NCBI RefSeq assembly: GCF_965638725.1
Contig: NC_134976.1
Coordinates: 1,488,001 to 1,552,000 of the forward strand
DNA length: 64,000 bases
Source of the DNA: Aptenodytes patagonicus
Taxonomy: Eukaryota > Chordata > Aves > Sphenisciformes > Spheniscidae
Direction of reading: 5' to 3'
Shown: positions 13,843 to 45,700 of the stretch, in pieces
Numbering within the stretch: position 1 is the stretch's first letter
Layout of the letters: each line of letters begins with the position of its first letter
Notes under the pieces: generated by a model
What the model was told of the DNA's origin: nothing
Database searches by the model: none
The model's input: the letters and a program-made list of their open reading frames with translations, nothing else
Made by a program: the position numbers and the translations under genes

Positions 13843-16800
13843 TCACTTGTAGAGGATGTCGTAGTGGCCGGGGCGGTAGAGGAGGCAGACGCGGGGCTGG
13901 GAGCCCTCGGGGAAGACGTGGGGGTTGGTGGCGCCCCCCTCCCCCCGGTCCATGTATTCCACCAGGATGGAGACGTGCAAGGCTCGTGCGAGGGCGATGA
14001 TGTGGATGTGGTCGCTCTCCTTGCACATGGGTTCCACCTCCTGTCAGGGGAAAAGGGGGTCAGGGGGCCGTGCGAGGGGCGCTCGGAGGCCGTGCGAGGG
14101 CTGTGCAAGGCCGGGCGAGGGTCGTGCAAGGGCGACCGGAGGCCGTAAAGGGCTGCACGAAGCCGTGCAAGGGCAGCACGAGGCCGCGCACACCCGCGGG
14201 GGGGCTGTGCGAGGGCCGTGGGAGGCCGCGTGAAGCTGCGTGAAGCCGTGCAAGGGCAGCGCGAGGGCCGTGCAAGGCCACGCGAGGGCCGCTGGAGGCC
14301 GTGCGAGGGTGCTGGGAGGTGGTGCGAGACCCGTGCAAGGGCAGCGCGAGGCCGTGCAAGGCTCGTGCGAGGCCGCGTGATGCCACGCGAGGGCCACGTG
14401 AAGCCACGCAGGGGCGCTGGGACGTGACGCGAGACCCGTGCAAGGCTTGCGCGAGGCCGTGCAAGGGCAGCGCGAGGCCGTGCAAGGCTTGCGCGAGGCC
14501 GCAAGACGCCACGCAAAGGCCGCAGGAGACCCGGTAAGGACCACGCGGAGCTGCGCGAGGGCGCTGGGCGGTGGCGTGAGGCCCGCGCGACGCTCGCGTG
14601 AGGCCGCGCAAATCCGCGCAAAGCTGCAAGATGCCACCCGAGGGGCCCCGCAAGGACCACGCGAAGCCGTGCGGGGGCCCCGGGCGTTGCGAGACGCCGC
14701 CCAAAGCCGCGTGACGCCACGCAGGGGCCACGCGAGGACCGGGGGAAGCCGCGCGAGGGTGCTGGGAGGCAGCGCGTGGCCCGTGCGAGGCCCGTGCGAG
14801 GCCCGTGCGAGGCCCGTACCTGCTGGCAGAACTCCTTGATGCTGCGGCCGCCCTCCAGGAACTGCTCGAAGAAGCGGCGGTGGCGCTGGAGGCAGCCGGA
14901 GGTCAGCAGGCGCAGGTAGACCACCAGGTAGTCGGAGGTGCTGGGCTCGTTGAAGGCGGCCAGCAGCTCCGGCAGCGGCACGCGGCGCTCCACCCGCTCG
15001 ATCAGCTCCATGAACTGCGGGGCGCGCGCGTCAGGGGGGCGCACGCGCGTCAGGGGGGGCGCACGCGCGCGTCAGGGGGGTACAGGTGTGTCAGGGGCGC
15101 ACGCGCGCGTCAGGGGGGTACAGGTGTGTCAGGGGGGCACACGCGCGTCGGGGGGGCACACGTGGGGTTACGTGCCCCGTCATGGGTCACACAGGGGGTC
15201 ACAGGCACCGTGCCCCCCCCATCTCCCCACGCCCCCCCTCGTCTCCCTGCGCCCCCCCTCGTCTCCCCGCACCCCTCCGTCTCCCCCCGTCTCCCCGTGC
15301 CCCCCATCTCCCCATGCCCCCCCTCATCTCCCCGCGCCCCCCTCGTCTCCCCGTGCCCCCCATCTCCCCATGCCCCCCCTCGTCTCCCCGCGCCCCCCCT
15401 CGTCTCCCCGTGCCCCCCCATCTCCCCATGCCCCCCCTCGTCTCCCCGTGCCCCCCCTCATCTCCCCCCGTCTCCCCGTGCCCCCCCATGTCCCTGTTCC
15501 CCCCCGTCTCCCTGCACTCCCCCCATCTCCCCGTGCCCCCCCCGTCTCCCCGTGCCCCCCCCCGTCCCCGCGTCCCCACCGTGTTGTGGAAGTCCTCGAT
15601 GGTGAACTCGGTGAAGCCCTGCGCCACCAGCTCCTCCTTGCTGCGGGCAGAGACCTCCTTGAACCTGGGGGGGGACCCAGGCGTCTGGGGGGGGACTCGG
15701 ATGTTGGGGGGGGGGGGGGAAGGGGACCCGGGGGGCTCGGGGAGGGGGACACACCCAGGGGACACCCAGGCGTCCAAGCTGGGGACCGGGGGGGCCAAGA
15801 GGACCCAGAGGACTTGGGTGGGGGACCCCCAGGCGTCCGGGGGGGCACCCAGGCGTCCGGGGGGGCACCCAGGCGTCCGGGGGGGGTCCCCGGGCGTGGC
15901 GCACCGCTGCAGCTCCTGGCCGTCCTCCAGCAGAGCCTCCAGGTGGGCGAAGCCGAAGGCTCGGTAGAAGCAGTTCCCGTCCGGCCGCGTCTTCCGGATG
16001 TAGGAATACTTCTGGAGCAGGTCCTGCTCGGGGGGGCGGGCGGTCGGGGGGGGCACGGGGACACCCCGGGGGGGCACCACGAGGGACATCCCAGGGGACA
16101 CGGTACCCTTCAAGGCTCCCCGTCCCCTTCTGGTGCCCCACGGCTGCTCCCCCTCCTGTACTGGTGCCCCACGGCTGCCCCCGTCCCCTTCTGGTGCCCC
16201 ACGGCTGCCCCCGTCCCCTTCTGGTGCCCCACGGCTGCTCCCCGTCCTGTACTGGTGCCCCACGGCTGCCCCCCGTCCCCTTCTGGTGCCCCACGGCTGC
16301 TCCCCCTCCTGTACTGGTGCCCCACGGCTGCCCCCCGTCCCCTTCTGGTGCCCCACGGCTGCTCCCCCTCCTGTACTGGTGCCCCACGGCTGCCCCCCGT
16401 CCCCTTCTGGTGCCCCACGGCTGCTCCCCGTCCTGTACTGGTGCCCCACGGCTGCCCCCCGTCCCCTTCTGGTGCCCCACGGCTGCTCCCCGTCCTGTAC
16501 TGGTGCCCCACGGCTGCCCCCGTCCTGTACTGGTGCCCCACGGCTGCTCCCCGTCCTGTACTGGTGCCCCACGGCTGCTCCCCGTCCTGTACTGGTGCCC
16601 CACGGCTGCCCCCCGTCCCCTTCTGGTGCCCCACGGCTGCCCCCCGTCCTGTACTGGTGCCCCACGGCTGCCCCCCGTCCCCTTCTGGTGCCCCACGGCT
16701 GCTCCCCGTCCTGTACTGGTGCCCCACGGCTGCCCCCGTCCTGTACTGGTGCCCCACGGCTGCTCCCCCTCCTGTACTGGTGCCCCACGGCTGCCCCCCG

Positions 16801-17945
16801 TCCCCTTCTGGTGCCCCACGGCTGCTCCCCCTCCTGTACTGGTGCCCCACGGCTGCCCCCCGTCCCCTTCTGGTGCCCCACGGCTGCCCCCCGTCCCTTC
16901 TGGTGCCCACCTTGATCTTCTGCTGGTAGATGTGGTCGTCCTCGGCGTACTCCTTGTACAGCACCGCCAGCTCCAGCCGCTCCGACACCAGCGGGTTCTG
17001 CACCGCGATCTGCGCCCCGATGGGGGCCGTCAGGATTGGGGGGACCCCCCTAAGGGGGCCGGGAGGGATTTGGGGACCCCCCGAGGAGGTTTTGGGGGGG
17101 TGGTGGTGGGGTTTCTCACCTCTTGCTGGATCCGGTCCTGCTGTGCCATGATGGCCTCATCGTAGGCCAGGCAGTTCACGCCTTTTTGGGGGGATATTGG
17201 GGTTCAGAGGGGCCCCCCGATTTCATAGGGGTCCCCCATGGTCTCTTCACCCCGCCGATGGGGGGTTTGGGGGAGACGGGTGGGGTGGGCACCCCAAAAT
17301 GGATCCTGGGGGGTTTGGGGGGTGGCAGGACGCCGGGGAGATGCCTCTTGGGGGGGTCGGGGTGCTTTGGGGACGGGCCATGGGGGGCATCGGGGTGCCA
17401 GGGGGAGACTATGGGGGTGTTGGGGTGCTGTAGGGGACCTACAGGGGGGTGTTGGGGTGCCGGGGGGGGCCATGGGGGTATTGGGGTGCCGGGGGGAGAC
17501 TGGGGTGCTACGGGGGGCCTGCGGGGGGTATCGGGGTGCTGCGGGGGGCTACAGGGGACGTTGCGGTGCTTGGGGGGGCCCTGGGGCGCTGCGGGGGGAT
17601 TAGGGTGCTGTGGGGGTGCCTCGGGGGGGACGTGGGGGTGCCTCGGGGGGGACGTGGGGGTGCCGGGGTGCTGTGGGGGTGCCTCGGCGGGGCCTATAGG
17701 GGCACCGGGGAACCACGGGGGGGCTACGGGGGTATTGGGTGCCCCGTGGGGGGGAACCGGGCCCCAGCGCGGGGTCCCCCGTAGGGCGCCGGGGTGCTCC
17801 CGGTCCGGGGGTCCCCGGGGGGGTGCCGGGACGCAGGGGGAGGCCCGGGGAGACGGCCCCGGGGGGGACCGGGCCGGGGGCCGTCGGTACCGTCCGCGTC
17901 GCCGCCGAGCGGCTCCGGCTTCTGCTGAGGCTCCTCCGCCGCCAT
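13843..17945 (-). CDS. OTUB1: Ubiquitin thioesterase otubain-1, complete
   Basis: OTU-family cysteine protease specific for Lys48-linked ubiquitin, also known to inhibit E2 enzymes such as UBC13 without catalysis. Exons in coding order: 17945-17891, 17181-17120, 17009-16911, 16023-15905, 15664-15580, 15014-14820, 14040-13843 (stop 13845-13843). They sum to 813 bases, or 270 residues, against 271 in the human protein. Visible features are the N-terminal MAAEEPQQKPEPLG, the catalytic Asp/Cys in RPDGNCFYRAFGF (fourth exon), and the catalytic His in YRPGHYDILYK at the C-terminus. STSDYLVVYLRLLTSG and EYMDRGEGGATNPH are also present. All introns are GT-AG. An in-frame ATG three bases upstream (17948-17946) would add one Met; 17945 is chosen because the family begins MAAEEP. 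No breaks are seen. The gene is convergent with PPP4C. Confidence 0.97.
14041..14819 (-). repeat. OTUB1 last intron, GTGCGAGGCCGTGCAAGGGC array
   Basis: Short units of about 10-12 bases (CGTGCGAGGC, GCAAGGGCAGC, CCACGCGAGG) with looser longer-range order fill the whole 779-base intron. CpG density is high. No gene is seen. Confidence 0.8.
15015..15579 (-). repeat. OTUB1 intron, GTCAGGGGGG and CCCGTCTCCCCGTGCCCCCC arrays
   Basis: Two arrays lie end to end. 15030-15150 holds units such as CGCACGCGCGTCAGGGGGG, and 15215-15570 holds about 25-bp units around CCTCGTCTCCCCGTGCCCC. No gene is seen. Confidence 0.8.
15665..15904 (-). repeat. OTUB1 intron with GGGACCCAGGCGTC motif copies
   Basis: Begins next to the splice junction with GGGGACCCAGGCGTCTGG (15671 on) and ends with three copies of CACCCAGGCGTCCGGGGGG (15836-15890). 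This is the same core as the PPP4C intron 4 array and the ALDOA 3' flank. Confidence 0.8.
16024..16910 (-). repeat. OTUB1 intron, 29-30-bp minisatellite (GGTGCCCCACGGCTG)
   Basis: From about 16120 to 16910 some 26 units of TGGTGCCCCACGGCTG plus either CCCCCCGTCCCCTTC or CTCCCCGTCCTGTAC alternate in runs. Homogeneity is high. Open frames on both strands across it result from the repeat. Confidence 0.9.
17182..17890 (-). repeat. OTUB1 first intron, GGGGTGCCGGGGGG-type G-rich array
   Basis: Units of about 30 bases around GGGTGTTGGGGTGC(C/T)G and CTACGGGGG run from about 17330 to 17760, with strong G bias on the plus strand (C on the transcribed OTUB1 sense strand). The exon 1 donor at 17890 is followed by 100 bases of CpG-rich sequence. 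No gene is seen. Confidence 0.75.
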
Positions 17946-18080
17946 CATCCGCCGCAGCCCCGCCCCGCGCAGCGCTTCCGGGTCACCGGCCGCCGCCAGC
18001 AGCGCTTCCGGGTCAACGACCGCCCCGCCGGAAGCGCGCACGGCCGTAGCAACCGGCTCCTCCCTCGCCCGCGGTCAGGC
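17946..18080 (-). promoter_or_regulatory. OTUB1 CpG-island promoter with repeated ETS-type sites
   Basis: Direct repeat of GCAGCGCTTCCGGGTCA (near 17968 and 17998), plus CCGGAAGCGCGCA near 18030, places three CCGGAAG ETS cores within 100 bases of the start codon. CGTAGCAACCGG (18045) and CCTAGCAACGG (18087) resemble RFX half-sites. Transcription start is inferred. Confidence 0.6.
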
Positions 18081-18365
18081 CCGCCCCTAGCAACGGCCCG
18101 AGTGGGCGAGAGGCCACGCCCCAAGCGACAGGCCACGCCCCTGACGAACGCCCGGGAGCGGGAGGGCACCGCCCCTAGCGACAGGCTCCGCCCATGGAGA
18201 CCGGCCGGGAGCGGGGAGGGCACCGCCCCTAGCGACAGGCTCCGCCCATGGAGACCGGCTGGGAGCGGGGGAGGGCACCGCCCCTAGCGACAGGCTCCGC
18301 CCATGGAGACCGGCCGGGAGCGGGGGAGGGCACCGCCCCTAGCGACAAGCTCCGCCCCTGGAGAC
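18081..18365. repeat. 54-55-bp tandem repeat upstream of OTUB1
   Basis: Four good copies (CACC of CACCGCCCCTAGCGACAG at 18167, 18221, 18276 and 18331) plus diverged ones before them. Each unit contains GC-box-like CACCGCCCCTAGCGACA and GGCTCCGCCCATGGAGACC, so it may multiply promoter elements of OTUB1. Confidence 0.85.
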
Positions 18366-18409
18366 CGGCCCGCCCGGCTCCCTGTCCCCATCTTTCGGGT
18401 CCTCCCCCT

Positions 18410-19890: not shown

Positions 19891-20152
19891 CCTGGCTGAA
19901 CAAACGCTCGCCGTGGCTGGATAAACGCTCGCCGTGGCTGAACAAACGCTCGCCGTGGCTGAACAAACGCTCGCTGTGCGTGGCTGGATAAACGCTCGCC
20001 ATGGCTGAACAAACGCTCGCCGTGGCTGAACAAACACTCGCCGTGGCTGAACAAACACTCGCCGTGGCTGAACAAACGCTCGCCATGGCTGGATAAACGC
20101 TCGCCGTGGCTGGATAAACGCTCGCTGTGCGTGGCTGGATAAACGCTCGCCG
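19891..20152. repeat. 21-bp minisatellite (TGGCTGAACAAACGCTCGCCG)
   Basis: About twelve units in which TGGCTGAACAAACGCTCGCC alternates with TGGCTGGATAAACGCTCGCC. Two units carry a GTGCG insertion. Identity between units is high. Confidence 0.9.
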
Positions 20153-20611
20153 TCTCCTTCGCCCTCCCGGCTGGGTTTGCGCTCCCTTTGCAGGGGGCGA
20201 GGGGCCGCGATGGAGCCCAGGGGAGGGGGTGACGCAGGGCGGGGGTCGGGCGATGGCCCCCCCGCCCCTGCTGGGCTCCGGCTGTGGGCTCGGGCCGGAG
20301 GAGCCCCGGGGGCGGGCGGCGGGGCTGATGGCGGCGGCCCCTCCCCGTGAAGGGGCTGCGCTGCCGGAGCGGCTGCGGGGCCGGTGGTGGGGCTGCCGCC
20401 CCCCGGGGGGCCGCGGAGGGGCCGCTGTGAGCCGAGGGAGGGGCGGAGCGGGCGGCGAGCGAGGGGGGCGGCGAGGCGAGGCCGGCGGGGGGAGCCGGGC
20501 GGCGGCGGCTGCCGGGAGCCGCGCCGGGGAGCGCGGGGCTGCGCCGGGGGCCGGGCGGGGGGAGAGCGGCGTCCCCGCAGGGTCAGGGGGCGGGGAGGGC
20601 CGCCTCCCGCG
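20153..20611. promoter_or_regulatory. CpG island, possible promoter
   Basis: Very CpG-dense, G-rich sequence. The part around 20195-20310 (GGGGGTGACGCAGGG... GCTCCGGCTGTGGGCTCGGG) is similar to 29805-29885 (GGGGTGATGTGCTG... GCTCCAGCTGTGGGCTGGGG), so it belongs to the duplicated modules described below. No coding exon is recognised. Confidence 0.45.
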
Positions 20612-22060
20612 GCATGCCGGGAGCTGTAGTCCGGGGCACTGGGCTTCCGGTCGGCCATGTTTGCTCCCCGGAGCATGCCGGGAGCTGTAGTCCCGGGGCA
20701 CTGGGCTTCCGGTCGGCCATGTTGGCTCCCCGGAGCATGACGGGAGCTGTGGTCCCGGGGCACCGGGCTTCCGGTCGGCCATGTTGGCTCCCCGGAGCAT
20801 GCCGGGAGCTGTGGTCCCGGGGCACCGGGCTTCCGGTCGGCCATGTTGGCTCCCCGGAGCATGCCGGGAGCTGTGGTCCCGGGGCACGGGGCTTCCGGTC
20901 GGCCATGTTGGCTCCCCGGAGCATGACGGGAGCTGTGGTCCCGGGGCACTGGGCTTCCGGTCGGCCATGTTGGCTCCCCGGAGCATGACGGGAGCTGTAG
21001 TCCCGGGGCACTGGGCTTCCGGTCGGCCATGTTGGCTCCCCGGAGCATGCCGGGAGCTGTGGTCCCGGGGCACTGGGCTTCCGGTCGGCCATGTTGGCTC
21101 CCCGGAGCATGCCGGGAGCTGTAGTCCCGGGGCACTGGGCTTCCGGTCGGCCATGTTGGCTCCCCGGAGCATGCCGGGAGCTGTGGTCCCGGGGCACTGG
21201 GCTTCCGGTCGGCCATGTTGGCTCCCCGGAGCATGCCGGGAGCTGTGGTCCCGGGGCACGGGGCTTCCGGTCGGCCATGTTGGCTCCCCGGAGCATGCCG
21301 GGAGCTGTAGTCCGGGGCACTGGGCTTCCGGTCGGCCATGTTGGCTCCCCGGAGCATGCCGGGAGCTGTGGTCCCGGGGCACTGGGCTTCCGGTCGGCCA
21401 TGTTGGCTCCCCGGAGCATGACGGGAGCTGTGGTCCCGGGGCACTGGGCTTCCGGTCGGCCATGTTGGCTCCCCGGAGCATGCCGGGAGCTGTGGTCCCG
21501 GGGCACTGGGCTTCCGGTCGGCCATGCTGGCTCCCCGGAGCATGACGGGAGCTGTAGTCCCGGGGCACTGGGCTTCCGGTCGGCCATGTTGGCTCCCCGG
21601 AGCATGCCGGGAGCTGTAGTCCCGGAGCACTGGGCTTCCGGTCGGCCATGTTGGCTCCCCGGAGCATGCCGGGAGCTGTAGTCCCGGGGCACTGGGCTTC
21701 CGGTCGGCCATGTTGGCTCCCCGGAGCATGCCGGGAGCTGTGGTCCCGGGGCACTGGGCTTCCGGTCGGCCATGTTGGCTCCCCGGAGCATGCCGGGAGC
21801 TGTGGTCCCGGGGCACTGGGCTTCCGGTCGGCCATGTTGGCTCCCCGGAGCATGCCGGGAGCTGTGGTCCCGGGGCACGGGGCTTCCGGTCGGCCATGTT
21901 GGCTCCCCGGAGCATGCCGGGAGCTGTAGTCCGGGGCACGGGGCTTCCGGTCGGCCATGTTGCTACCCGGAGCATGCCGGGAGCTGTGGTCCCGGGGCAC
22001 CGGGCTTCCGGTCGGCCATGCTGGCTCCCCGGAGCATGCCGGGAGGTGTAGTCTTCCGTC
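20612..22060. repeat. 62-bp tandem array carrying ZNF143/THAP11-, ETS- and YY1-like sites, about 23 copies
   Basis: Each unit reads GCATGCCGGGAGCTGTAGT, then CCCGGGGCACTGGG, then CTTCCGGTCGGCCATGTTGG, then CTCCCCGGA. On the minus strand the first element is ACTACAGCTCCCGGCATGC, close to the ZNF143/THAP11 promoter motif ACTACAnnTCCCAGCATGC. ACCGGAAG is an ETS (GABP) site, and CAACATGGCCG fits the YY1 core. Variation between units is mainly A/G in TGTAGT versus TGTGGT, C/A in ATGCCGG versus ATGACGG, and single-base indels. The long open frames over it on both strands are repeat products. Confidence 0.92.
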
Positions 22061-22990
22061 GCTCCGCTGCCGTGCGGCCGCGCTGCCTCTGCCGGTGCAT
22101 GCCGGGAGGTGTAGTTTTCACGGACGTGGCTGCCGGGCAGCCGCACGGCTCTCGGGCGCGTGCGGCGCGGTGTAGCCCTTGCTACCGCCGCGGCCCCCAC
22201 GGCGTGGCACGAGGTGTAGTTTTGCTGCCCGTTTCGCGTGGTTTTCGGCGGGCTTCCCGCCGCGCCCGGTCCCCGACGGCGCCGCGCATGCGCTGTGTAG
22301 CCCTACACGGCGCTCGCTGCTGCCGCCCTGTGACCATAATGCGGTACTGCAGTACAGCCGCCGCGCATGCGCCGTGGGTGTTACACCGCGCTCTCTGCTG
22401 CCGCCAGGTGACCATAATGCGGTACTGCAATGCGGTCGCTGCGCATGCGCCGTGGGTGTTACGCCGTGCTCGCTGCTGCCGCCCGGTGACCATAATGCGG
22501 TACTGCAATGCGGTCGCCGCGCATGCGCTGTGCGTGTTACGCCGTGCTCGCTGCTGCCTCCCAACGACCAGAAGTCGGTACTGCAGCTCCGGCGCCGCGC
22601 ATGCGCCGTGCGTGTTACACCGCGCTCGCTGCTGCCGCCCGGTGACCATAATGCGGTACTGCAGTACGGTCGCCGCGCATGCGTCTTCGGTGCTACACCG
22701 TGCTCGCTGCTGCCGCCCGGCGACCGTTATGCGGTACCGCAGCTCCGGCGCCGCGCATGCGCAGATCAGCGTTACACCGCGCTCGCTGCTGCCGCCTGGC
22801 GAGCAAAAGCCGGTGCTGCCGCTCCAGCGCCGCGCATGCGCGGTGGCCCGCGCCGCCCGGCTCGCTGCTGCCGCCGCCTGGCGGCCGAGGCGCGGTACTG
22901 CAGCCCGGCGTCTGCGCGCCGGCTCTGGCCCCTCCGGCGCGCCGTCGGCGTCCCGCGCATGCGCGGTGCCCGGGGGCAGCTTGGCGGCGC
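22061..22990. repeat. About 78-bp tandem array centred on NRF1-like GCGCATGCGC, about nine copies
   Basis: CGCGCATGCGC(C/T) lies near 22285, 22363, 22441, 22519, 22596, 22674, 22753, 22833 and 22956. Each is followed by GCTCGCTGCTGCCGCC and ACCATAATGCGGTACTGCA. The palindrome matches the NRF1 consensus YGCGCATGCGCR. The first 150 bases (22061-22220) are transitional and hold further ZNF143-like tails (GCATGCCGGGAGGTGTAGT near 22098). Confidence 0.88.
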
Positions 22991-23424: not shown

Positions 23425-24180
23425 GCGCGGGGAAGGAGCAGCGTCTCCAGAAGCCCCTGCGGGAGGAGGGGATTCGGCCAGGGGCGAGCTACGGTAGTAA
23501 CGGTGGCTGCTGCTTCTTTCCCTCTCCCAGAGGCCGCGCTGAGGACGGGGTTCTCCGTTCCTCCCCCGGGGATGCCGTTGACTGCGCCCGCCTCAGGCGT
23601 GCGTGGGTTGTCTGCCCGGCCTCGCTCTCCTCGCGGCGTGGGGGTGGAAAGGAACAGGCGGAGCGCTTGCCGGCTGTGGACAGGAGCTGCCGTGGCTGAA
23701 GCCGGAGAGGCCAGAGAAAGGTAAAGAAGACGAAATCGAAGGCTGTCCGGCTGGCAGCTGCCTCCAGCTGCAGCGAAGAGGGAGCCTGCCCGTCCGGGTG
23801 AGGAAGGATCCCTCTTCGTGGTCCGCAGCAGGCCAGGCTGTCCACGTGCACCGCAGGGTCTGTGTGTGTCACCAGCAGCGTGGTACGGCCGCGTGCTGCG
23901 CGAGCGAGCGAGCGAGGCTGCGGGTCTGGGAAGCCTCGTCTGGTAAGAGCTGTGAGACGCCCACGTCTTCTCTTTGGTGGAGGACAGACGAGCGACCGCA
24001 GTTACAGAAGAGGAAGGGAGGAGAGCAGGAGACAAGAAATGTCTGAACCAGCAAATTCTTCCGGCAGCGCCGAGAGCGAGAGCTGCGGTGAGTCTGGGGC
24101 CCCTGGGGCCCTCTTGCCCCTCTTCTGCGTCCCGGTCCCCCCTGCCCCTCCCCATCCCCCTCTCTTTCCCACACCGCTGT
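23425..24180 (+). other. Module copy A: two exon-like segments of an unidentified plus-strand transcript family
   Basis: Similar to 25630-26330 (copy B) with an offset of about 2.19 kb, and weakly to 29900-30385 (copy C). An exon-like piece 23531-23720 is bounded by CCCTCTCCCAG and AAAG|GTAAAG, both conserved in copy B. A second exon-like piece, about 24007-24087, ends GAGCTGCG|GTGAGT and contains an ATG (24039) with the short open reading MSEPANSSGSAESESC up to the donor. Between A and B the reading frame of the first piece is not kept (190 versus 180 bases), which argues for an untranslated or non-coding exon. Product unknown. Confidence 0.5.
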
Positions 24181-25440: not shown

Positions 25441-26330
25441 ACTGCCGAGCTGTCCCAGGGGAAGGGTGAGTGTTCAGGCACCGAGCCCTGGAGTGGACCA
25501 CTCCTGGGAATTTACACATTAACGAATGAACACTTGCTGTCTCCTTTGCACTCACGGCTGTGTTTGTAGTCCTTCGTACTGGGTGAGGGGCTGTCAGAGA
25601 GTCCAGGGGAGCAGGTTACGCAGTGGGTGTTCGGGGAAGGAGCGGCGTCTCCTGCAGCAGGAGGGGTTCCTGCCTGAGGAGAGCCACGGTCATCGCTGTG
25701 GGTAACAGCTGCTTGTTCTCTCCCTCTCCCAGAGGCAGCACCGAGGACTCTCTCGTCGGTTCCTCTCCGGGGACGCTGTTGACGGCATCTGGCTCAGGTT
25801 TGCGTGGGTTGTCTTTGGCCTCGCTCTCCTGGCGGCGTGGGCGAAAAGGGACGGGCACTTACTGGCTGTGGGCGGGAGCTGCCGCGGCTGAAGCCGGAGA
25901 GGCCAGAGAAAGGTAAAGCAGCTGAAGAATAAAATAAAGAGGATCCAGCCGGCAGCTGCCTCCCGCTGCAGGCAGGAGACAGCCTGCCTCTCCGGGTGAG
26001 GAAGGATCCCTCTTAGCGTAGTCCTCAGCAGATCCGATCACCGACGTGCACGGCAGGGTCTGTGTGCGTTACCAAAATCACAGCACAGCCACGTGGTGTG
26101 TGCGCGAGTGAGGCTGTGTACCTGGGAAGCCTAACGCCTAAGACACCAACCTATTCTCTTCGGTGGATGACAGTCAAGCGACCGGAGCTACGGAGGAGGA
26201 AGAGAGGGGGAGACGGAGAAGGACATGTCCGAACTGTCAAGTTCTCCTCGCAGCTCCAGGAGCGGGAGCTGTGGAGAGTCCTGGACCCCTGGGGCCGTGT
26301 CGTCCCTTTTCTGCATCCTGGTCCCTCCCT
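25441..26330 (+). other. Module copy B: paralogue of copy A
   Basis: Exon-like piece 25733-25912 has the same acceptor context (CCCTCTCCCAG) and the same GGAGAGGCCAGAGAAAG|GTAAAG donor as copy A. The counterpart of A's second piece near 26185-26272 keeps an ATG (26225; MSELSSSPRSSRSGSC) but its donor is changed to GAGAGT. The leading 25450-25580 (CAGGCACCGAGCCC... ATTAACGAATGAA) is similar to 29655-29790 (CGGGCACTGAGCC... ATTAATGAATCAA). Product unknown; B looks decayed relative to A. Confidence 0.5.
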
Positions 26331-26748
26331 GCCCCCCCTTCTCTTCCACTGTTGTCAATTTTTAGTTTCCCTGCACCTCTCCCTCTCTCCTTCTCCAAGT
26401 CCCCCTCTTTCTCTGTTGTTCTGCCTCTCCGTTTCCTTTTTCTTTCTGCGCTTCTGTCCTGTCCTGTCCCTTTTTTCATCCTCGGTCTCTGTCCTGCAGC
26501 CCATCGCTATTTTTGTCTTTCTCCATCTATCTGTCTGTCTTCCTATCCCAATTTTTCCTAATTCCTCCCCGTCTGCCCTTTAGCCCTTCACAGTCCCCCC
26601 CGCCCCTCCATCTGGCCCCACGTCCCTATTTTTAAAACCCTCTCTCTCTGCCCTGTATTCTCGATATGTGTCTTCTTTCTTAGATTCTCTCGTTCCAGGT
26701 CCCTGTCCCTATGTTTTAATCTCTTCCCTCTCTGTCCCATAGCCCATT
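26331..26748. repeat. Pyrimidine-rich diverged array, module B, interrupted by an LTR
   Basis: Same family as 24181-25440, with GCAGCCCATCGCTATTTTTG at 26498. The solo LTR that follows is inserted in a unit of this array. Confidence 0.65.
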
Positions 26749-27294
26749 TGTCCTGGTTTCGGCAGGGATAGAGTTAATTTCCTTCCTAGTAGCTGGTACA
26801 GTGTTTTGGATTTAGGATGAGAACAAAGCTGATAACGCACGGATGTTTTAGTTGTTGCTAGGTAATGCTTACACTAGCCAAGGACTTTTCAGCTTCCCAT
26901 GCTCTACCGACTGAGCAGGCTGGAGGTGCACAAGAAGCTGGGAGGGGGCACAGCCAAACTGGCCAAAGGGACATTCCATACCATGTGACGTCATGCTCAG
27001 TACATAAACTGGGGAAAGCTGGCCGGGGGGGGGGCGGGGCCGCTGCTCGGGGACTGTCTGGGCATCGGTCGGCGGGTGGTGAGCAACTGCACTGTGCATC
27101 ACTTGCTTTGTGTATTATTATTATTATTATCATATTATTATCATTTTATTTCCATTATTAAACTGTTTTTATCTCAACCCACGAGTTTTTTCTCACTTGT
27201 GCTCTTCCAATTCTCTCCCCCATCCCACCGGGCGGGGGGGAGTGAGCGAGCGGCTGCGTGGTGCTCAGTTGCCAACTGAGGTTAAACCACGACA
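26749..27294 (+). mobile_element. Solo LTR of an avian endogenous retrovirus (ERVL-like)
   Basis: 546 bases beginning TGTCCTGGTTTCGGC and ending AAACCACGACA, flanked by a perfect 5-bp target-site duplication, CCATT (26744-26748 and 27295-27299). TG...CA ends plus a 5-bp duplication fit class III (ERVL) elements. A TATA-like CATAAA (near 27004), an ATTAAA poly(A) signal (27157-27162) and an ATT-rich microsatellite (27114-27150) are inside. No internal retroviral genes remain. Confidence 0.9.
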
Positions 27295-27585
27295 CCATTT
27301 TTGTCTTTATCGTTCTCTCCTGTCGCTATTTAATTCCTCTGTCTCTCCCCTTCAGCTCATCGAGGTTTTTTGGGATTTCTCAGTCTCTCTCTGTCCCCTG
27401 TTTTAATTCCTCCCTCTCTGCCCTGTGGCCCATCCCTATTCTTTGGTTTTCTCCATCTCTCTCAGTCTGGCTCCCGGTCTCTTCCACCTCTCTGGCCTGT
27501 CGCCCATTGCTATTTTTCCCCCTCTGCCTCTCCCTTTCCCTATTTTTCAGCCCCCCCCTGACTCTGCCCTGCAGCCGGTCGCTGT
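27295..27585. repeat. Continuation of the module B pyrimidine-rich array
   Basis: Resumes directly after the first LTR's target duplication (CCATTTTTGTCTTTATCG) and runs to the second LTR. No gene is seen. Confidence 0.6.
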
Positions 27586-29655: not shown

Positions 29656-30384
29656 CCGGCTGCCTTCGGGCACTGAGCCTCGTAGCCAACTCACTGCCAG
29701 GATTTCTTGTGCGCATTAATGAATCAACTTTTCCTGCCTCCCCTGTGCCCCTGGATGTGTTTGCAACTCCTGGGTGCAGAGCTCGTGCCTGTGGACGGGT
29801 GCAGGGGAAGGGGTGATGTGCTGTGGGGCTGGGGTGATGGCCCCCTGTTCCCAATGGGCTCCAGCTGTGGGCTGGGGCAGCCCAGGTGGGACCCGTGAGG
29901 TGAGGGTGGGGCTGGGCCCAGGGTTTAAAAAGGCTGCAGGTGGGGATGGGCCAGGGCAGCTCCAGAGGCTGAGGGTGGAGCTGGTTCTGCTGTGCCCAGG
30001 GGCTCTAGCTGGGGAGGGGGCTGCCTGGGCAGGCCTGCCTGCAGGAGCTGGCTGAGGAGTGAAAGCAAGGGGCTTCCAGAGGCAGCTGCCTCCAGTGAGG
30101 AACGGCTGGTCCCCGCAGCAAGGAAGGATCCCTCCCAGCTGCCCCTGACCGAGCACACCTCCAGCACATGGAGCCGGGAGCTCGGTGCCTCCCTTGGCTG
30201 CACATGTGAGCTGCCGTGCATCTGGGAAGCCTCATGGGAGAGGAGCATCGAGGCACCCCCGCCTCCTCCTGGGTGGGCGAGGGTCGGGCAGCCGGCGCTG
30301 CGGAGGAGGAAGGGGCAGAGGCAGAGAGAGAAGCCTCGGGGCCATGTAGGTCTCCTGCCGGCACCAGGAGCTGTGGTGAGTCAT
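29656..30384 (+). other. Module copy C: third diverged copy of the exon-like module
   Basis: Shares with B the segment around ATTAATGAATCAA (29715), with 20195-20310 the segment GCTCCAGCTGTGGGCTGGGG (29859), and with A and B the phrases AAGGAAGGATCCCTC (30120), TCTGGGAAGCCTC (30220), GCGCTGCGGAGGAGGAAGGG (30296) and the terminal GAGCTGTG|GTGAGTCA (donor near 30376). The ATG seen in A/B is followed by a stop here (ATGTAG), so a coding reading is not conserved. Confidence 0.5.
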
Positions 30385-31400
30385 GCGTTCCCCTCGTGTG
30401 TGTCCCGGCCCATCCCTGCCATGCTTCTCCAGGTCTCTGCCTGCCTCCTTGCCTGTCCCTGCCTCCGTCTCCCTTTTGGGCTGTCTGGCTCCCCAAAGCT
30501 TTTTGCTCTTCTGCTAGCGCTGCCCTGTACACCGCTGCCTTATGTTTCCTTCCTATGCCTCTCCCTGTCCGGCTCCCCACCCACTATAATTTCATTCTTC
30601 CCACGCTGCCTTCTTCCCCGTTGCTTGTGAAAATTGCATTTCCAGGTCTCCCTCTACCCGGCCGGCTCCCTGTGCTCTCCGTGACTCCCTGTTGCCACTC
30701 TTCCCATGTCCTTTCCCTGTGGCTGTCTGTCCAGCTCCCTCTCCCGAAATTTCACTTCTTACCCCTATGGCCAGTACCCTGTTGCTTTCTCAATTTTCTC
30801 CCTACCTCCTCCTTTATCCAGTTCCTTGTCTGTGGTGTTTATTTCTTCCTGCCCATCCTCTACTTCATCGCTTTTTGAATTTTGTTTCAACATCTTCATT
30901 TTTTTTAGTTTGCTGACCCTATTTTTCATTTTTTTCCTCGCTGTTGTTAATCCCTTTGCTTTTCAAATTTTCTTTCCATGTCTCTGTTTTAGTTTGCTGT
31001 CGCTACTTTTTAATTTTTTATTTCCTTAAACCCTGCGACTTTCAAAATTTTGTCTGCTTTTCTTCCTTTCAATGTCTATTTTTTAATTATTTCTTGTCTT
31101 TCCTTAGAAAAGTTAAAAAGGACTGCACTATGTCTCCATTTATTTAGTTTGCAGCCCCTGTGTTTTAATTTTTTCCTCCTTCAATGCCTTTGTTTTCCAA
31201 TTTTTTTCTATGTCTACTTTTATCTAGTTTTCTGTCCCTATTTTCCAATTTTTTCTCCTCTGTTGTGTGTCCTTTTGCTTTTTAACTTTTTTCCTACATC
31301 TACTTTTATCTAGCTGTCTATCCCTATTTTTAATTCTTTCTTGTTTGTCGCATACCATGTCGCTTTTTAAATTTTCTTTGTCGTTTATTTTTTTTCCTCT
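30385..31400. repeat. Diverged T/C-rich array, module C
   Basis: Loosely repeated TTTTCAATTTTTTCC, CCTATTTTTAATT and TATGTCTACTTTTATCTAG at about 80-100-base spacing, grading from C-rich to T-rich. No gene is seen in its 1.0 kb. Confidence 0.6.
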
Positions 31401-34630: not shown

Positions 34631-35660
34631 AGGATTTTGCTCCATTTTGGGGGGAGGCGGGGGTTGCTGCTGCTTCATTTTGGGGTGAAGAATTTGTTGC
34701 ACTTTTATGGGGAGAAGTGGTGCTGCTCCCTCTCAGGGTGGAGAGGGGCCGCTGCTCCCTTTTGGGGCAGGGGGAGAGCTGGTGCTGCTGTTTTTGGGGG
34801 GGGGGGGGGGGGGGGAGAGAACTGCCGCTGCTCCATGTTGGGGAGTGGACTTGCTGCTGCTCTGTTTTGGGGGGGGGGAGGTGGGGGTGGCCGCTGCTCT
34901 GGTTTTGTGGTGAAGAATTTGCTGCTCTGTTTTGGGGGGGAGGGTTGGTGCTGCTCCATTTTAGGGCGGAGAGTTGGTGCTGCTCCATTTTGGGGAGGGG
35001 AGAGGGGCTGCTGCTCTGTTTGGGGGGCGGGTTGGTGCTGCTCCATTTTAGGGGGGAGAGTTGGTGCTGCTCTATTTTGGGGAGGGGAGAGGGGCCGCAG
35101 CTCCGTTTTGGGGAGGTGAGGGGCTGCAGCTCTGTTTTCAGCTCTGTTCCAGGGGGGAGAGTTGGTGCTGCTCCTTTTTTGGGGGGGAGAGTTGGTGCTG
35201 CTCCCTTTAGGGGAAGAGAGGGGCTGCTGCTCTGTTTTGGGGTGGTTGAGTGGTGATGCTCCGTTTCAGGGGGGGGGAAGGGGGCGCTGCTCCATTTCGG
35301 GGGGGGGGGGGGGGGGAGGGGCTGCTGCTCTGTTTCTGGGGGGGGGGGGAGAGGGGCCGCTGCTCTGTTTTGGGGTGGTTGAGTGGTGATGCTCCGTTTC
35401 GGGGGGGGGGGAAGGGGGCGCTGCTCCATTACGGGGGGGGGGGGGAGAGGGGCCGCTGCTCTGTTTCTGGGGGGGGGGAGGGCCGCTGCTCTGTTTCTGG
35501 GGGGGGGGAGGGCCGCTGCTCCGTTTTGGGGGGAAGAGTGGTGCTGCTCTGTTATGAGAGGATAAATGGTGATGCTCCATATTGAGGAGGGAGGGTGGTG
35601 CTGCTCCATTTCGGGGGGGCGGAGTGGTGCTGCTCTGTTTTGGGGCAGAGAGTTGCCACA
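34631..35660 (+). repeat. G-rich minisatellite, heterogeneous left part
   Basis: Units of about 30-45 bases around GGTGCTGCTCCGTTTTGGGG with GAGAGTGGTGATGCTCC variants. Unit spacing and sequence are variable. Poly-G runs of 7 to 18 occur in most units. Confidence 0.9.
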
Positions 35661-38600
35661 GCTCCGTTTTGGGGGGGGGGTGAGGGCCCGCTGCTCCGTT
35701 TCGGGGGGGGGGGGGGGGGTGAGGGCCCGCTGCTCCGTTTCGGGGGGGGGGGGGGGGGAGGGCCCGCTGCTCCGTTTCGGGGGGGGGGGGGGGTGAGGGC
35801 CCGCTGCTGCTCCGTTTCGGGGGCGGGGGGGGTGAGGGCCCGCTGCTCCGTTTCGGAGGGGGGGGTGAGGGCCCGCTGCTGCTCCGTTTTGGGGGGGGGG
35901 GTGAGGGCCCGCTGCTGCTCCGTTTCGGGGGGGGGGTGAGGGCCCGCTGCTGCTCTGTTTTGGGGGGGGGTGAGGGCCCGCTGCTGCTCTGTTTCGGGGG
36001 GGGGGGGGGGTGAGGGCCCGCTGCTGCTCCGTTTTGGGGGGGGGTGAGGGCCCGCTGCTGCTCCGTTTTGGGGGGGGGTGAGGGCCCGCTGCTGCTCCGT
36101 TTTGGGGGGGGGGGTGAGGGCCCGCTGCTGCTCCGTTTTGGGGGGGGGGTGAGGGCCTGCTGCTGCTCCGTTTTGGGTGGGGTGAGGGCCCGCTGCTGCT
36201 CCGTTTCGGGGGGGGGGTGAGGGCCCGCTGCTGCTCTGTTTTGGGGGGGGGTGAGGGCCCGCTGCTGCTCTGTTTCGGGGGGGGGGGGGTGAGGGCCCGC
36301 TGCTGCTCCGTTTCGGGGGGGGGGGGGTGAGGGCCCGCTGCTGCTCTGTTTTGGGGGGGGTGAGGGCCTGCTGCTGCTCCGTTGCGGGGGGGGGGGGGTG
36401 AGGGCCCGCTGCTGCTCCGTTTCGGGGGGGGGGGGGGGGTGAGGGCCCGCTGCTGCTCCGTTTCGGGGGGGGGGAGGGCCCGCTGCTGCTCCGTTTTGGG
36501 GGGGGGGGGGTGAGGGCTCGCTGCTGCTCCGTTTCGGAGGGGGGGGTGAGGGCCCGCTGCTGCTCCGTTTCGGGGGGGGGTGAGGGCTCGCTGCTGCTCC
36601 GTTTCAGGGGGGGGGGTGAGGGCCCGCTGCTGCTCCGTTTCGGGGGGGGGGGGGGGGTGAGGGCTCGCTGCTGCTCCGTTTCGGGGGGGGGGGTGAGGGC
36701 TCGCTGCTGCTCCGTTTCGGGGGGGGGGGGTGAGGGCTCGCTGCTGCTCCGTTTCGGGGGGGGGGGTGAGGGCCCGCTGCTGCTCCGTTTTGGGGGGGGG
36801 GGGTGAGGGCCCGCTGCTGCTCCGTTGCGGGGGGGGGGGGGGGGGGGGTGAGGGCCCGCTGCTGCTCCGTTTCGGGGGGGGGGGGGGTGAGGGCCCGCTG
36901 CTGCTCCGTTGCGGGGGGGGGGGGGGGGGGTGAGGGCCCGCTGCTGCTCCGTTGCGGGGGGGGGGGGGGGGGGGTGAGGGCCCGCTGCTGCTCCGTTTCG
37001 GGGGGGGGGGGGGGCGGGGGGGTGAGGGCCCGCTGCTGCTCCGTTTCGGGGGGGGGCGGGGGGGGGGGTGAGGGCCCGCTGCTGCTCCGTTTCGGGGGGG
37101 GGGGTGAGGGCTCGCTGCTGCTCCGTTTCGGGGGGGGGGGGTGAGGGCTCGCTGCTGCTCCGTTTCGGGGGGGGGGGTGAGGGCCCGCTGCTGCTCCGTT
37201 TTGGGGGGGGGGGGGTGAGGGCCCGCTGCTGCTCCGTTGCGGGGGGGGGGGGGGGGGGGGGTGAGGGCCCGCTGCTGCTCCGTTTCGGGGGGGGGGGGGG
37301 GGTGAGGGCCCGCTGCTGCTCCGTTGCGGGGGGGGGGGGGGGGGGTGAGGGCCCGCTGCTGCTCCGTTGCGGGGGGGGGGGGGGGGGGGGGGTGAGGGCC
37401 CGCTGCTGCTCCGTTTCGGGGGGGCGGGGGGGCGGGCGGGGGTGAGGGCCCGCTGCTGCTCCGTTTCGGGGGGGGGCGGGGGGGGGGGGGTGAGGGCCCG
37501 CTGCTGCTCCGTTTCGGGGGGGGGGGGGGGGGTGAGGGCCCGCTGCTGCTCCGTTTTGGGGGGGGGGTGAGGGCCCGCTGCTGCTCCGTTTTGGGGGGGG
37601 GGGGTGAGGGCCCGCTGCTGCTCCGTTTTGGGGGGGGGGGGTGAGGGCCCGCTGCTGCTCCGTTTTGGGGGGGGGGGTGAGGGCCCGCTGCTGCTCCGTT
37701 TTGGGGGGGGGGGGTGAGGGCCCGCTGCTGCTCCGTTTTGGGGGGGGGGGTGAGGGCCCGCTGCTGCTCCGTTTTGGGGGGGGGGTGAGGGCCCGCTGCT
37801 GCTCCGTTTTGGGGGGGGGGGTGAGGGCCCGCTGCTGCTCCGTTTTGGGGGGGGGGGTGAGGGCCCGCTGCTGCTCCGTTTTGGGGGGGGGGTGAGGGCC
37901 CGCTGCTGCTCCGTTTTGGGGGGGGTGTGAGGGCCCGCTGCTGCTCCGTTTTGGGGGGGGGGTGAGGGCCCGCTGCTGCTCCGTTTTGGGGGGGGGGTGA
38001 GGGCCCGCTGCTGCTCCGTTTCGGGGGGGGGGTGAGGGCCCGCTGCTGCTCTGTTTTGGGGGGGGGTGAGGGCCCGCTGCTGCTCTGTTTCGGGGGGGGG
38101 GGGGGGTGAGGGCCCGCTGCTGCTCCGTTTTGGGGGGGGGTGAGGGCCCGCTGCTGCTCCGTTTTGGGGGGGTGGTGAGGGCCCGCTGCTGCTCCGTTTT
38201 GGGGGGGGGGTGAGGGCCCGCTGCTGCTCCGTTTTGGGGGGGGGGTGAGGGCCCGCTGCTGCTCCGTTTCGGGGGGGGGGTGAGGGCCCGCTGCTGCTCT
38301 GTTTTGGGGGGGGGGTGAGGGCCCGCTGCTGCTCTGTTTCGGGGGGTGGGGGGGGTGAGGGCCCGCTGCTGCTCCGTTTCGGGGGGGGGGGGGGGTGAGG
38401 GCCCGCTGCTGCTCCGTTTCGGGGGGGGGGAGGGCCCGCTGCTGCTCCGTTTCGGGGGGGGGGGGTGAGGGCTCGCTGCTGCTCCGTTTCGGAGGGGGGG
38501 GTGAGGGCCCGCTGTTGCTCCGTTTCGGGGGGGGGGAGGGCCCGCTGCTGCTCCGTTTCGGGGGGGGGGTGAGGGCTCGCTGCTGCTCCGTTTCGGGGGG

Positions 38601-41600
38601 GGGGGGTGAGGGCTCGCTGCTGCTCCGTTTCGGGGGGGGGGTGAGGGCCTGCTGCTGCTCCGTTTCGGGGGGGGGGGGGGGGTGAGGGCTCGCTGCTGCT
38701 CCGTTTCGGGGGGGGGGGGGGGTGAGGGCCCGCTGCTGCTCCGTTTCGGGGGGGGGGGATGAGGGCCCGCTGCTGCTCCGTTTCGGGGGGGGGTGTGAGG
38801 GCCCGCTGCTGCTCCGTTTCGGGGGGGGGGTGAGGGCCTGCTGCTCCGTTTCGGGGGGGGGGTGAGGGCTCGCTGCTGCTCCGTTTCGGGGGGGGGGGTG
38901 AGGGCCCGCTGCTGCTCCGTTTCGGGGGGGGGGGTGAGGGCCCGCTGCTGCTCCGTTTCGGGGGGGGGTGAGGGTTCGCTGCTGCTCCGTTTCGGGGGGG
39001 GGGGGGTGAGGGCCTGCTGCTGCTCCGTTTCGGGGGGGGGGAGGGCCCGCTGCTGCTCCGTTTCAGGGGGGGGGTGAGGGCTCGCTGTTGCTCCGTTTCG
39101 GGGGGGGGGTGAGGGCCCGCTGCTGCTCCGTTGCGGGGGGGGGGGGGGGGTGAGGGCCCGCTGCTGCTCCGTTTCGGGGGGGGGGGGGTGAGGGCCCGCT
39201 GCTGCTCCGTTTCGGGGGGGGGGGGGGGTGAGGGCCCGCTGCTGCTCCGTTTCGGGGGGGGGTGAGGGCTCGCTGCTGCTCCGTTTCGGGGGGGGGGGGT
39301 GAGGGCTCGCTGCTGCTCCGTTTCGGGGGGGGGGTGAGGGCTCGCTGCTGCTCCGTTTCGGGGGGGGGGGGGGGGGGGTGAGGGCTCGCTGCTGCTCCGT
39401 TTCAGGGGGGGGTGAGGGCTCGCTGCTGCTCCGTTTCGGGGGGAGGGAGGGCCCGCTGCTGCTCCGTTTCAGGGGGGGGGTGAGGGCTCGCTGTTGCTCC
39501 GTTTCGGGGGGGGGGGGGGTGAGGGCTCGCTGCTGCTCCGTTTCGGGGGGGGGGGGGGGGGGGGGGGGTGAGGGCTCGCTGCTGCTCCGTTTCGGGGGGG
39601 GGGGGGGGTGAGGGCCCGCTGCTGCTCCGTTTCGGGGGGGGGGTGAGGGCCCGCTGCTGCTCCGTTTCAGGGGGGGGGGTTAGGGCTCGCTGCTGCTCCG
39701 TTTCGGGGGGGGGGGGGGGGGTGTGAGGGCCCGCTGTTGCTCCGTTTCGGGGGGGGGTGAGGGCTCGCTGTTGCTCCGTTTCGGGGGGGGGGAGGGCCCG
39801 CTGCTGCTCCGTTTCGGGGGGGGGGAGGGCCCGCTGCTGCTCCGTTTCGGGGGGGGGGGGGTGAGGGCCCGCTGCTGCTGCGTTTCGGGGGGGGGTGAGG
39901 GCTCGCTGCTGCTCCGTTTCGGGGGGGGGTGAGGGCCCGCTGCTGCTCCGTTTCGGGGGGGGGGGGGGGGGTGGGGGAGGGCCCGCTGCTGCTCCGTTTC
40001 GGGGGGGGGGGGGGGGTGAGGGCCCGCTGCTGCTCCGTTTCGGGGGGGGGGGGGGGGTGAGGGCCCGCTGCTGCTCCGTTTCGGGGGGGGGTGAGGGCTC
40101 GCTGCTGCTCCGTTTCGGGGGGGGGGAGGGGGCCCGCTGCTGCTCCGTTTCGGGGGGGGGGGGGTGAGGGCTCGCTGCTGCTCCGTTTCGGGGGGGGGGG
40201 TGAGGGCTCGCTGCTGCTCCGTTTCGGGGGGGGGGGGGTGAGGGCCCGCTGCTGCTCCGTTTCGGGGGGGGGGGGGTGTGAGGGCTCGCTGCTGCTCCGT
40301 TTCGGGGGGAGGGAGGGCCCGCTGCTGCTCCGTTTCAGGGGGGGGGTGAGGGCTCGCTGTTGCTCCGTTTCGGGGGGGGGGGGGGGTGAGGGCTCGCTGC
40401 TGCTCCGTTTCGGGGGGGGGGGGGGGGGGGGGGGGTGAGGGCTCGCTGCTGCTCCGTTTCGGGGGGGGGGGGGGGTGAGGGCCCGCTGCTGCTCCGTTTC
40501 GGGGGGGGGGTGAGGGCCCGCTGCTGCTCCGTTTCAGGGGGGGGGGTTAGGGCTCGCTGCTGCTCCGTTTCGGGGGGGGGGGGGGGGGTGTGAGGGCCCG
40601 CTGTTGCTCCGTTTCGGGGGGGGGTGAGGGCTCGCTGTTGCTCCGTTTCGGGGGGGGGGAGGGCCCGCTGCTGCTCCGTTTCGGGGGGGGGGGGTGAGGG
40701 CCCGCTGCTGCTGCGTTTCGGGGGGGGGTGAGGGCTCGCTGCTGCTCCGTTTCGGGGGGGGGGGTGAGGGCTCGCTGCTGCTCCGTTTCGGGGGGGGGTG
40801 AGGGCCCGCTGCTGCTCCGTTTCGGGGGGGGGGGGGGGGGGGGGGTGGGTGAGGGCCCGCTGCTGCTCCGTTTCGGGGGGGGGGGGGGGGTGAGGGCCCG
40901 CTGCTGCTCCGTTTCGGGGGGGGGGGGGGGGGGTGAGGGCCCGCTGCTGCTCCGTTTCGGGGGGGGGGTGAGGGCTCGCTGCTGCTCCGTTTCGGGGGGG
41001 GGGAGGGGGCCCGCTGCTACTCCGTTTCGGGGGGGGGGGGTGAGGGCTCGCTGCTGCTCCGTTTCGGGGGGGGGGGTGAGGGCTCGCTGCTGCTCCGTTT
41101 CGGGGGGGGGGGGGGTGAGGGCCCGCTGCTGCTCCGTTTCGGGGGGGGGGGGGTGTGAGGGCCCGCTGGTGCTCCGTTTCGGGGGGGGGGGGGGGGTGAG
41201 GGCCCGCTGGTGCTCCGTTTCGGGGGCGGGGGGGTGAGGGCCCGCTGCTGCTGCTCCGTTTCGGGGGTGGTGAGGACCCGCTGCTCCGTTTCGGGGGGGG
41301 GGTGAGGGCCCGCTGCTGCTCCGTTTCGGGGGGGGGGGTGAGGGCCCGCTGCTGCTCCGTTTTGGGGGGGCTGAGGGCCCGCTCCTTCTCTGTTTCGGGG
41401 GGGGGGTGAGGGCCCGCTGCTGCTGCTGCTCCGTTTCGGGGGGGGGGTGAGGGCCCGCTGCTGCTGCTGCTCCGTTTCGGGGGGGGGGGTGAGGGCTCGC
41501 TGCTGCTGCTCCGTTTCGGGGGGGGGGTGAGGGCCCGCTGCTGCTGCTGCTCCGTTTCGGGGGGGGGGGGGTGAGGGCCCGCTGCTGCTCCGTTTTGGGG

Positions 41601-42560
41601 GTCGGGGTGCGGGCCCGCTGCTGCTCCGTTTCGGGGGGGGGGGGGGGTGAGGGCCCGCTGCTGCTCTGTTTCGGGGGGGGGGGGGGGTGAGGGCCCGCTG
41701 CTGCTCCGTTTCGGGGGGGGGGGGTGGGGGGTGAGGGCCCGCTGCTGCTCCGTTTCGGGGGGGGGGGGTGAGGGCCCGCTGCTGCTCCGTTGCGGGGGGG
41801 GGGGGGGGTGAGGGCCCGCTGCTGCTCCGTTTCGGGGGGGGGGGGGGGGGGGGTGTGAGGGCCCGCTGCTGCTCCGTTTCGGGGGGGGGGGGGGTGTGAG
41901 GGCCCGCTGCTGCTCCGTTTCGGGGGGGAGGAGAGTGCTGCTGCTCCGTTTTGGGGGGGGGGTGAGGGCCCGCTGCTCCGTTTCGGGGGGGCGAGGGCCC
42001 GCTGCTCCGTTTCGGGCGGGGCGAGGGCCCGTTGCTGCTCCGTTTCGGGGGGGGCGAGGGCCCGTTGCTGCTCCGTTTCGGGGGGGGCGAGGGCCCGTTG
42101 CTGCTCCGTTTCGGGGGGGGCGAGGGCCCGTTGCTGCTCCGTTTCGGGGGGGGCGAGGGCCCGTTGCTGCTCCGTTTCGGGGGGGGCGAGGGCCCGTTGC
42201 TGCTCCGTTTCGGCGGGGGCGAGGGCCCGTTGCTGCTCCGTTTCGGGGGGGGGGGCGTGAGGGCCCGCTGCTCCGTTTCGGGGGGGGCGTGAGGGCCCGC
42301 TGCTCCGTTTCGGGGGGGTGGTGAGGGCCCGCTGCTCCGTTTTGGGGGGCGGGGGTGAGGGCCCGCTGCTGCTCCGTTTCGGGGGGCGGGGGTGAGGGCC
42401 CGCTGCTGCTGCTGCTCCGTTTCGGGGGGGGGGTGACGGCCCGCTGCTGCTCCGTTTCGGGGGGGGGGGGGGTGAGGGCCCGCTGCTGCTCCGTTTCGGG
42501 GGGGGGGGTGAGGGCCCGCTGCTGCTCCGTTTCGGGGGGGGTGAGGGCCCACTGCTCCGT
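35661..42560 (+). repeat. G-rich minisatellite, homogeneous core (about 185 units)
   Basis: Nearly every unit reads TGAGGGCCCGCTGCTGCTCC, then GTTTCG or GTTTTG, then a G run of about 7 to 26. Period is 33-45 bases, set by the run length. Subtypes form blocks: GAGGGCTCGC, CCGTTGCGGGG, CTCTGTTTT and, at 42000-42250, seven copies of GCGAGGGCCCGTTGCTGCTC. Internal segmental duplications are visible (see findings). Long minus-strand open frames here are repeat products. Confidence 0.93.
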
Positions 42561-45500: not shown

Positions 45501-45700
45501 GGGGAGGAGAGTTGTCCCTGCTCTATTTTTGGGGAGGAGAGTTGCTGCTGGTTGGGTTCGGGGGGGAGAGGGGCCGCAGTTCTGTTCTGAGGGGGTTAGG
45601 GATTGCAGCAGCGTTCTGGGGAGAAGAGTTGCTGCTGCTCTGTTTTGGGGAGGAAAAGATGGTGCTCTGTATGGGGGAGAAGTGACTGCTCTCTTGCGGG
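42561..45700 (+). repeat. G-rich minisatellite, heterogeneous right part
   Basis: Units around GAGAGTGGTGATGCTCCGT and ACAAGGGCTGCTGCTCTG with TTTTGGGGGG runs, the same element type as 34631-35660. Blocks recur at about 400-600-base spacing (for example TTTTAGGTCAGAGTTGCCAC at 43216 and at 44339). Confidence 0.9.

Follow-up and report, generated by a model that had tools for sequence, protein, structure and literature searches.

Human TERRA promoters are subtelomeric CpG islands built of 61-29-37-bp repeats and carrying NRF1 sites, and Peg3 contains a cluster of YY1 sites; Michaud et al. reportedly found, in 2013, HCFC1 together with ZNF143, THAP11, YY1 and GABP. A YY1-site cluster is also described, in a section of PMC2743690, for the first intron of vertebrate YY1. 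Excerpts of the literature on ZNF143 indicate that this protein facilitates initiation and that ZNF143 sites, NRF1 and ETS motifs are promoter-initiation elements (PMC11118474), that the ACTACA submotif steers both THAP11 and HCF-1 to ZNF143 loci (PMC7154149, citing Vinckevicius 2015), and that depletion of ZNF143 reveals no general looping activity (PMC11687419). Dot-chromosome "sequence stuttering" was described for introns and exon borders (PMC12954441, 2026), and the words promoter, upstream and CpG island are absent from the main text of that paper. A limited search through excerpts of the literature, combining ZNF143 with minisatellite and dot-chromosome stuttering, found no array of the kind described below.

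The window (the whole stretch of 64,000 nucleotides analysed here, C28:1488001-1552000) belongs to contig C28 of a 1.35-Gb assembly of Aptenodytes patagonicus; at 2.87 Mb, GC- and repeat-rich, this contig has the size and composition of a dot chromosome. TRF arrays cover 64% of the known bases of the window, and 60% lie in arrays with at least three copies and a period of at least 20. The features considered are as follows (SBS, ZNF143/THAP11-type site).

7578 to the gap at 13375, plus strand: phosphatase of the PP2A family (PP2A ranked first in a structure search), which we take from its peptides to be PPP4C
13846..17945, minus strand: OTUB1 (coding ends), with ETS cores CCGGAAG just upstream at 17975, 18005 and 18028
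20139..20312, plus strand: left flank, similar to 25526-25635 and 29802-29889
20612..22053, minus strand: 62-bp array comprising 23 units plus the opening SBS of unit 24 (TRF; unit and motif counts)
22034..22158, minus strand: two diverged units to the right of the array, with SBS at 22034-22052 and 22097-22115
22202..22220, minus strand: degenerate SBS-like site, score 14.4 against a maximum of 12.6 in 200 simulated regions
22276..22846, plus strand: 78-bp array (TRF), 7.3 copies, with seven GCGCATGCGC sites, presumably NRF1-like, and an eighth at 22955
23428..24085, plus strand: putative exon region of an inferred plus-strand transcription unit, preceding a GTGAGT donor at 24086
25632..26363, plus strand: diverged duplicate of the putative exon region, without the promoter arrays (sequence comparison)
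30221..30448, plus strand: third and weaker copy of the terminal part of the putative exon region (alignment score against shuffled sequence)
34823..45650, plus strand: G-rich 28-35-bp arrays (TRF), with related 33-bp arrays near the ends of contigs C4, C5, C6 and C17

Between the OTUB1 start and the array, which is upstream of it, lie 2.67 kb. A 55-bp array at 18110-18370, with GC-box and RFX-like strings, adjoins the OTUB1 start and is a second promoter-side array in the window. The third copy of the exon region scores 44 against the first copy (A; shuffled maximum 35) and 55 against the duplicate (B; shuffled maximum 31). Pyrimidine-rich DNA, a G-rich array and a 190-bp satellite lie to the right of the putative exon region, and the stretches 26750-27300 and 27600-28660 resemble what we take to be solo LTRs of bird retroviruses. 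The satellite and its inverted 188-bp relative occupy 46233-59891 and 60092-64000 and meet at a 200-N gap; on C28 the satellite continues to at least 1581500, 29.5 kb past the window, and this region is a candidate for the centromere of C28. Searches of the window yielded no Rfam match and no tRNA, and prokaryote and viral collections contained no match to two patterns of the unit.

The first-pass annotation reported about 23 near-identical 62-bp units, and TRF bears this out, with a 62-bp period, 23.3 copies and 96% matches at 20612-22053. Twenty units are 62 bp long, two have 61 bp and one has 60 bp; 13 of the 62 columns vary among the 23 units, and both the start and the end of the array coincide with an SBS. 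The SBS of the two diverged edge units agree with that of an array unit at 18 of 19 positions and with each other at 19 of 19, and the spacers of these units are 68-78% identical; an in-register SBS-like site at 22158 scores 6.6, below the simulated maximum of 12.6 (200 regions). The spacing had also been described as near six helical turns, which applies between neighbouring units and not farther along the array, because 62/10.5 gives 5.90 turns and each unit adds a drift of 34 degrees. A coding reading was discarded: open minus-strand frames cross the array, but its 62-bp period is not divisible by three, and no evidence supporting a protein from these frames was found.

The SBS-type site, the ETS core and the YY1-like core of each unit are all read on the minus strand. 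The statement that every unit holds all three motifs is correct for the ETS core, ACCGGAAG, present in 23/23 units, and does not hold for the other two as exact strings: the SBS as first quoted, ACTACAGCTCCCGGCATGC, is exact in 7/23 units and CAACATGGCCG in 20/23, and the three strings occur together in 6/23. Within the SBS, ACTACA is found in nine units and is replaced by ACCACA in 14, so that the commonest variant departs from the ACTACA submotif; CCCGGCATGC is found in 18 units and gives way to CCCGTCATGC in five. Judged by the SBS core (ACTACANNTCCC with CCCRGCATGC), both ACTACA and CCCGGCATGC are complete in seven of the 23 units. The retention of ACTACA in only nine units implies that the array drifted from the consensus while growing.

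Chance was estimated with consensus strings, 400 kb of simulated background with the local dinucleotide content, and random 74-mers. At the closeness found in the units (3, 4 or 5 mismatches), the SBS consensus occurs in random 74-mers at frequencies of 0, 0.00014 and 0.0004, respectively, and the ETS consensus, at two mismatches, at 0.05; the YY1 promoter consensus has three mismatches in 20 units and four in three units, for which the random frequencies are 0.11 and 0.51. When a doubled unit was dinucleotide-shuffled 20,000 times, the three core strings never came together, and this motif excess counts as one observation, not 23, because the units are copies of one another. Scored in this way, the SBS is solid, far beyond chance, the ETS site modest and the YY1 site weak, near background, and the initial description of the array and its motifs is confirmed in part. 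Among the tested arrays with at least three copies, SBS, ETS, YY1 or NRF1 cores are present only in the 62-bp and 78-bp arrays. One CTCF-like pattern matched neither the unit nor any TRF consensus tested.

A 21-base pattern of the unit, GCATGMCGGGAGCTGTRGTCC, occurs 193 times genome-wide, including 23 times in this array, and its reversed control not at all. The promoter family was collected through this SBS pattern alone, and 100 of the 193 matches were listed, so the family may be larger; the listed matches comprise 23 in this array, 15 in an array on contig C27, 30 in pairs on C28, 20 near contig ends and 12 solitary ones. At least 20 copies, here called end copies, are found at distances of 6.8-81 kb from the tip of a contig, on 11 contigs other than C28 (C3, C4, C5, C6, C7, C12, C14, C15, C17, C20 and C22). 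All 20 listed end copies contain the 62-bp unit a single time, and more SBS-like sites come after it at intervals of 61-63 bp; the unexpanded promoter has three SBS with this spacing. On C3, the promoter belongs to non-coding units that follow one another in tandem every 12.4-12.7 kb.

The C27 copy is 94-97% identical to the window at 15.7-34.2 kb and, in the same assembly, has 15 units compared with 23 in the window. All 11 distinct C27 units, including the two edge units, also occur in the window. The left flank of the C27 copy is identical to the window at 450/450 bases; 578 of 778 columns align on the right flank, where the shortfall is mainly due to array length, and GCGCATGCGC sites number 11 in the C27 copy and eight in the window, flank included. 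This copy is possibly an allele assigned to a different scaffold.

Outside the window, C28 carries at least 15 promoter pairs (L009, L010, L012, L031-L042) with two SBS each, which form a tandem family of large units. The pairs are 70-230 kb apart, with a wider gap around the window, and belong to two types (12 and 3). About 185 bases of their promoter core are shared with the window, with 80-83% identity in three pairs examined. A Pfam search with five ORFs gave one match, a reverse-transcriptase piece in L044.

The single-unit relatives allow conservation to be assessed apart from the array. The family alignment includes 14 distinct sequences from 15 of the 20 listed end loci; L005, L006, L008, L022 and L023 were left out, their compared stretch being the same as that of L004, L007 or L013. 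SBS2 and SBS3 vary at 5/38 columns compared with 59/128 nearby (spacer 1 without its ETS and YY1 sites, spacer 2 and the 60 bases that follow), with a Fisher P of 2.4e-4 that takes columns as independent in copies that are related; the sites thus appear to be under selection in the single-unit relatives. The two variable SBS2 columns are the free positions of ACTACANNTCCC, which is kept three times in 13 of the 14 sequences and twice in the remaining one; SBS1 was required by the search pattern and, for this reason, its conservation cannot be judged. The ETS (2/8 columns variable) and YY1 (4/10) sites are not significantly conserved in this alignment. GCGCATGCGC is present 2 to 25 times in 14 of the 15 aligned end loci, the exception being L018, which also lacks the AACATGG core. 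The two diverged edge units alone give P values of 0.007-0.013 for constraint, and the family test is preferred, since these units were found by their SBS and the site at 22158 is no better than background.

The end copies have a direction: 19 of the 20 listed, on 11 contigs, point to their contig end, and the window copy itself is internal and faces the satellite. In the end samples of C4, C5, C6 and C17 a G-rich array is distal to the promoter, as in the window, and the C3 and C7 samples finish in pyrimidine-rich sequence; the C5 tip and the sampled stretches from C12 (10 kb), C20 (20 kb) and C22 have no match in the window. Samples of the contig starts of C12, C14, C15 and C20 (L051, L052, L067, L065) consist entirely of N. 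The C3, C7, C5, C12, C20, C22 and N samples count against a uniform end plan. Samples of 1.5 kb from nine readable contig ends, six of them family-bearing, contain no telomere array, and among 100 of 1545 listed matches the telomere pattern reaches a contig tip only at the other end of C3, so that contig ends are mostly unresolved in the assembly. As the C28 unit faces a satellite that is still present at 1581500, the family-bearing ends could be centromeric; that no chromosome has the family at both ends carries no weight, being expected fairly often (P=0.30) from random placement of 11 among 56 ends.

The array is a real promoter-derived minisatellite, as unexpanded related copies, their conserved SBS and the NRF1-like sites that follow it attest, and the first-pass interpretation is partly supported. 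We consider it rather likely, judging from sequence, that a repeated, plus-strand and probably non-coding transcription unit has a CpG-island promoter of which the array is the upstream part, produced by the expansion of a single SBS-to-SBS interval; the parent promoter is probably functional. The unexpanded promoter has three SBS at 61-63 bp from one another, the first interval holding an ETS site and a YY1-like core, and NRF1-like sites lie downstream. On the dot chromosome, this first interval would have grown to 23 units in the window and 15 in the C27 copy, with slippage or unequal exchange likely acting on the repeated SBS; expansion between these direct repeats seems the simplest route because the array is bounded by SBS and the unexpanded form has the same spacing. 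Binding of ZNF143, THAP11-HCFC1 and an ETS factor, predicted from the motifs, would help Pol II to start, and ACCACA units should recruit THAP11-HCFC1 less. Higher occupancy, or an island held open, may result from the additional units, which makes the proposed "super-array promoter" possible; such units do not seem to be needed, because a single one is present in most relatives. All six aligned end copies retain the GTGAGT donor and none of them the ATG, which suggests a spliced non-coding RNA from the plus-strand unit. A coding plus-strand gene was accordingly rejected, the ATG of MSEPANSSG... being found in the window and C27 copies and in none of the six aligned end copies. CpG decay was likewise dismissed as a sign of an unmethylated germline (C-to-T loss 0/230 compared with 14/1959 in the satellite, P=0.39). 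Set against the preferred reading are this CpG result, the lack of significant ETS and YY1 conservation, the drift of most units away from ACTACA, the incomplete right-flank alignment of the C27 copy, and L018 with neither GCGCATGCGC nor the AACATGG core.

Dot-chromosome DNA that multiplies locally might also have caught a promoter fragment in passing, in which case the ancestral promoter would matter and the added units would be inert. This is possible, though in our opinion doubtful: it agrees with the large share of the window taken up by TRF arrays, with the off-consensus ACCACA of 14 units, with relatives that manage with a single unit and with the local repeat expansion described as general on chicken dot chromosomes in sections of PMC12954441. 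The restriction of SBS, ETS, YY1 and NRF1 cores to two of the tested arrays speaks against such a passenger, but this argument is weak because both arrays lie in the promoter region.

A distal part of the OTUB1 promoter would explain why all three motif types lie on the minus strand, like OTUB1 itself, and face that gene across 2.67 kb; OTUB1 has ETS cores adjoining its own start, however, and at C3 the promoter recurs in its tandem non-coding units with OTUB1 not seen in the compared stretches, which makes this explanation very improbable. The first-pass annotation had also offered a boundary element and a transcription-factor sink. Dense ZNF143 sites in one orientation could act as an insulator or loop anchor, and ZNF143 has long been discussed as a looping factor, as passages of PMC7154149 recount, but the unit does not match the CTCF-like pattern and the part of PMC11687419 on ZNF143 depletion argues against general looping, on which grounds a boundary role is disfavoured; a sink is not favoured either, and with 23 of 193 genome-wide occurrences of GCATGMCGGGAGCTGTRGTCC it would be modest. 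Taken together, an insulator, anchor or sink seems the most far-fetched of these explanations, and the expanded upstream part of a non-coding promoter is retained as the preferred reading.

If this reading is true, repeat instability of dot chromosomes also multiplies promoter modules, and the number of transcription-factor sites can change quickly. The presence of 1, 15 and 23 units of the same module in one genome would then offer a natural series for homotypic site number, and the ACTACA and ACCACA units would allow THAP11-HCFC1 recruitment to be compared within a single array. With relatives that lie near contig ends and point toward them, end-directed non-coding transcription becomes open to direct testing in birds.

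The proposed promoter resembles the mammalian ZNF143/THAP11/HCFC1 CpG-island promoters treated in parts of PMC7154149 in having a ACTACANNTCCC-type site, an ETS core and a YY1-like core in CpG-rich DNA, with several SBS in one promoter, and differs from them in its 23 tandem copies at a fixed 62-bp step and in that the sites here are predicted. Like the YY1-site clusters of the YY1 intron and Peg3, the array is a homotypic cluster of a regulatory site; unlike in those clusters, YY1 gives the poorest match among the three motifs here. The family shares with human TERRA promoters the CpG-rich repeats near chromosome ends, the end-pointing direction and NRF1-like sites, and differs in that no telomere array was found at the nine readable contig ends sampled. 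It is conceivable, although we regard it as speculative and rather unlikely, that birds have dispersed ZNF143/THAP11- and NRF1-type CpG-island promoters which would fire non-coding RNA toward the chromosome end, telomere or centromere, as a counterpart of human TERRA promoters of possibly independent origin, and which on dot chromosomes would stutter into minisatellites of transcription-factor sites, their strength varying with unit number. The closest likeness is to avian stuttering, as outlined in portions of PMC12954441: a small GC-rich chromosome, imperfect tandem blocks of tens to hundreds of bases that were born locally (here, 62-bp units 96% alike, with single-unit relatives) and a length that differs between copies (23 and 15 units, alleles and loci not being separated). 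In those portions, the affected sequences are introns and exon borders, whereas the source here is a promoter interval, and the array is best read as the promoter form of avian dot-chromosome sequence stuttering.
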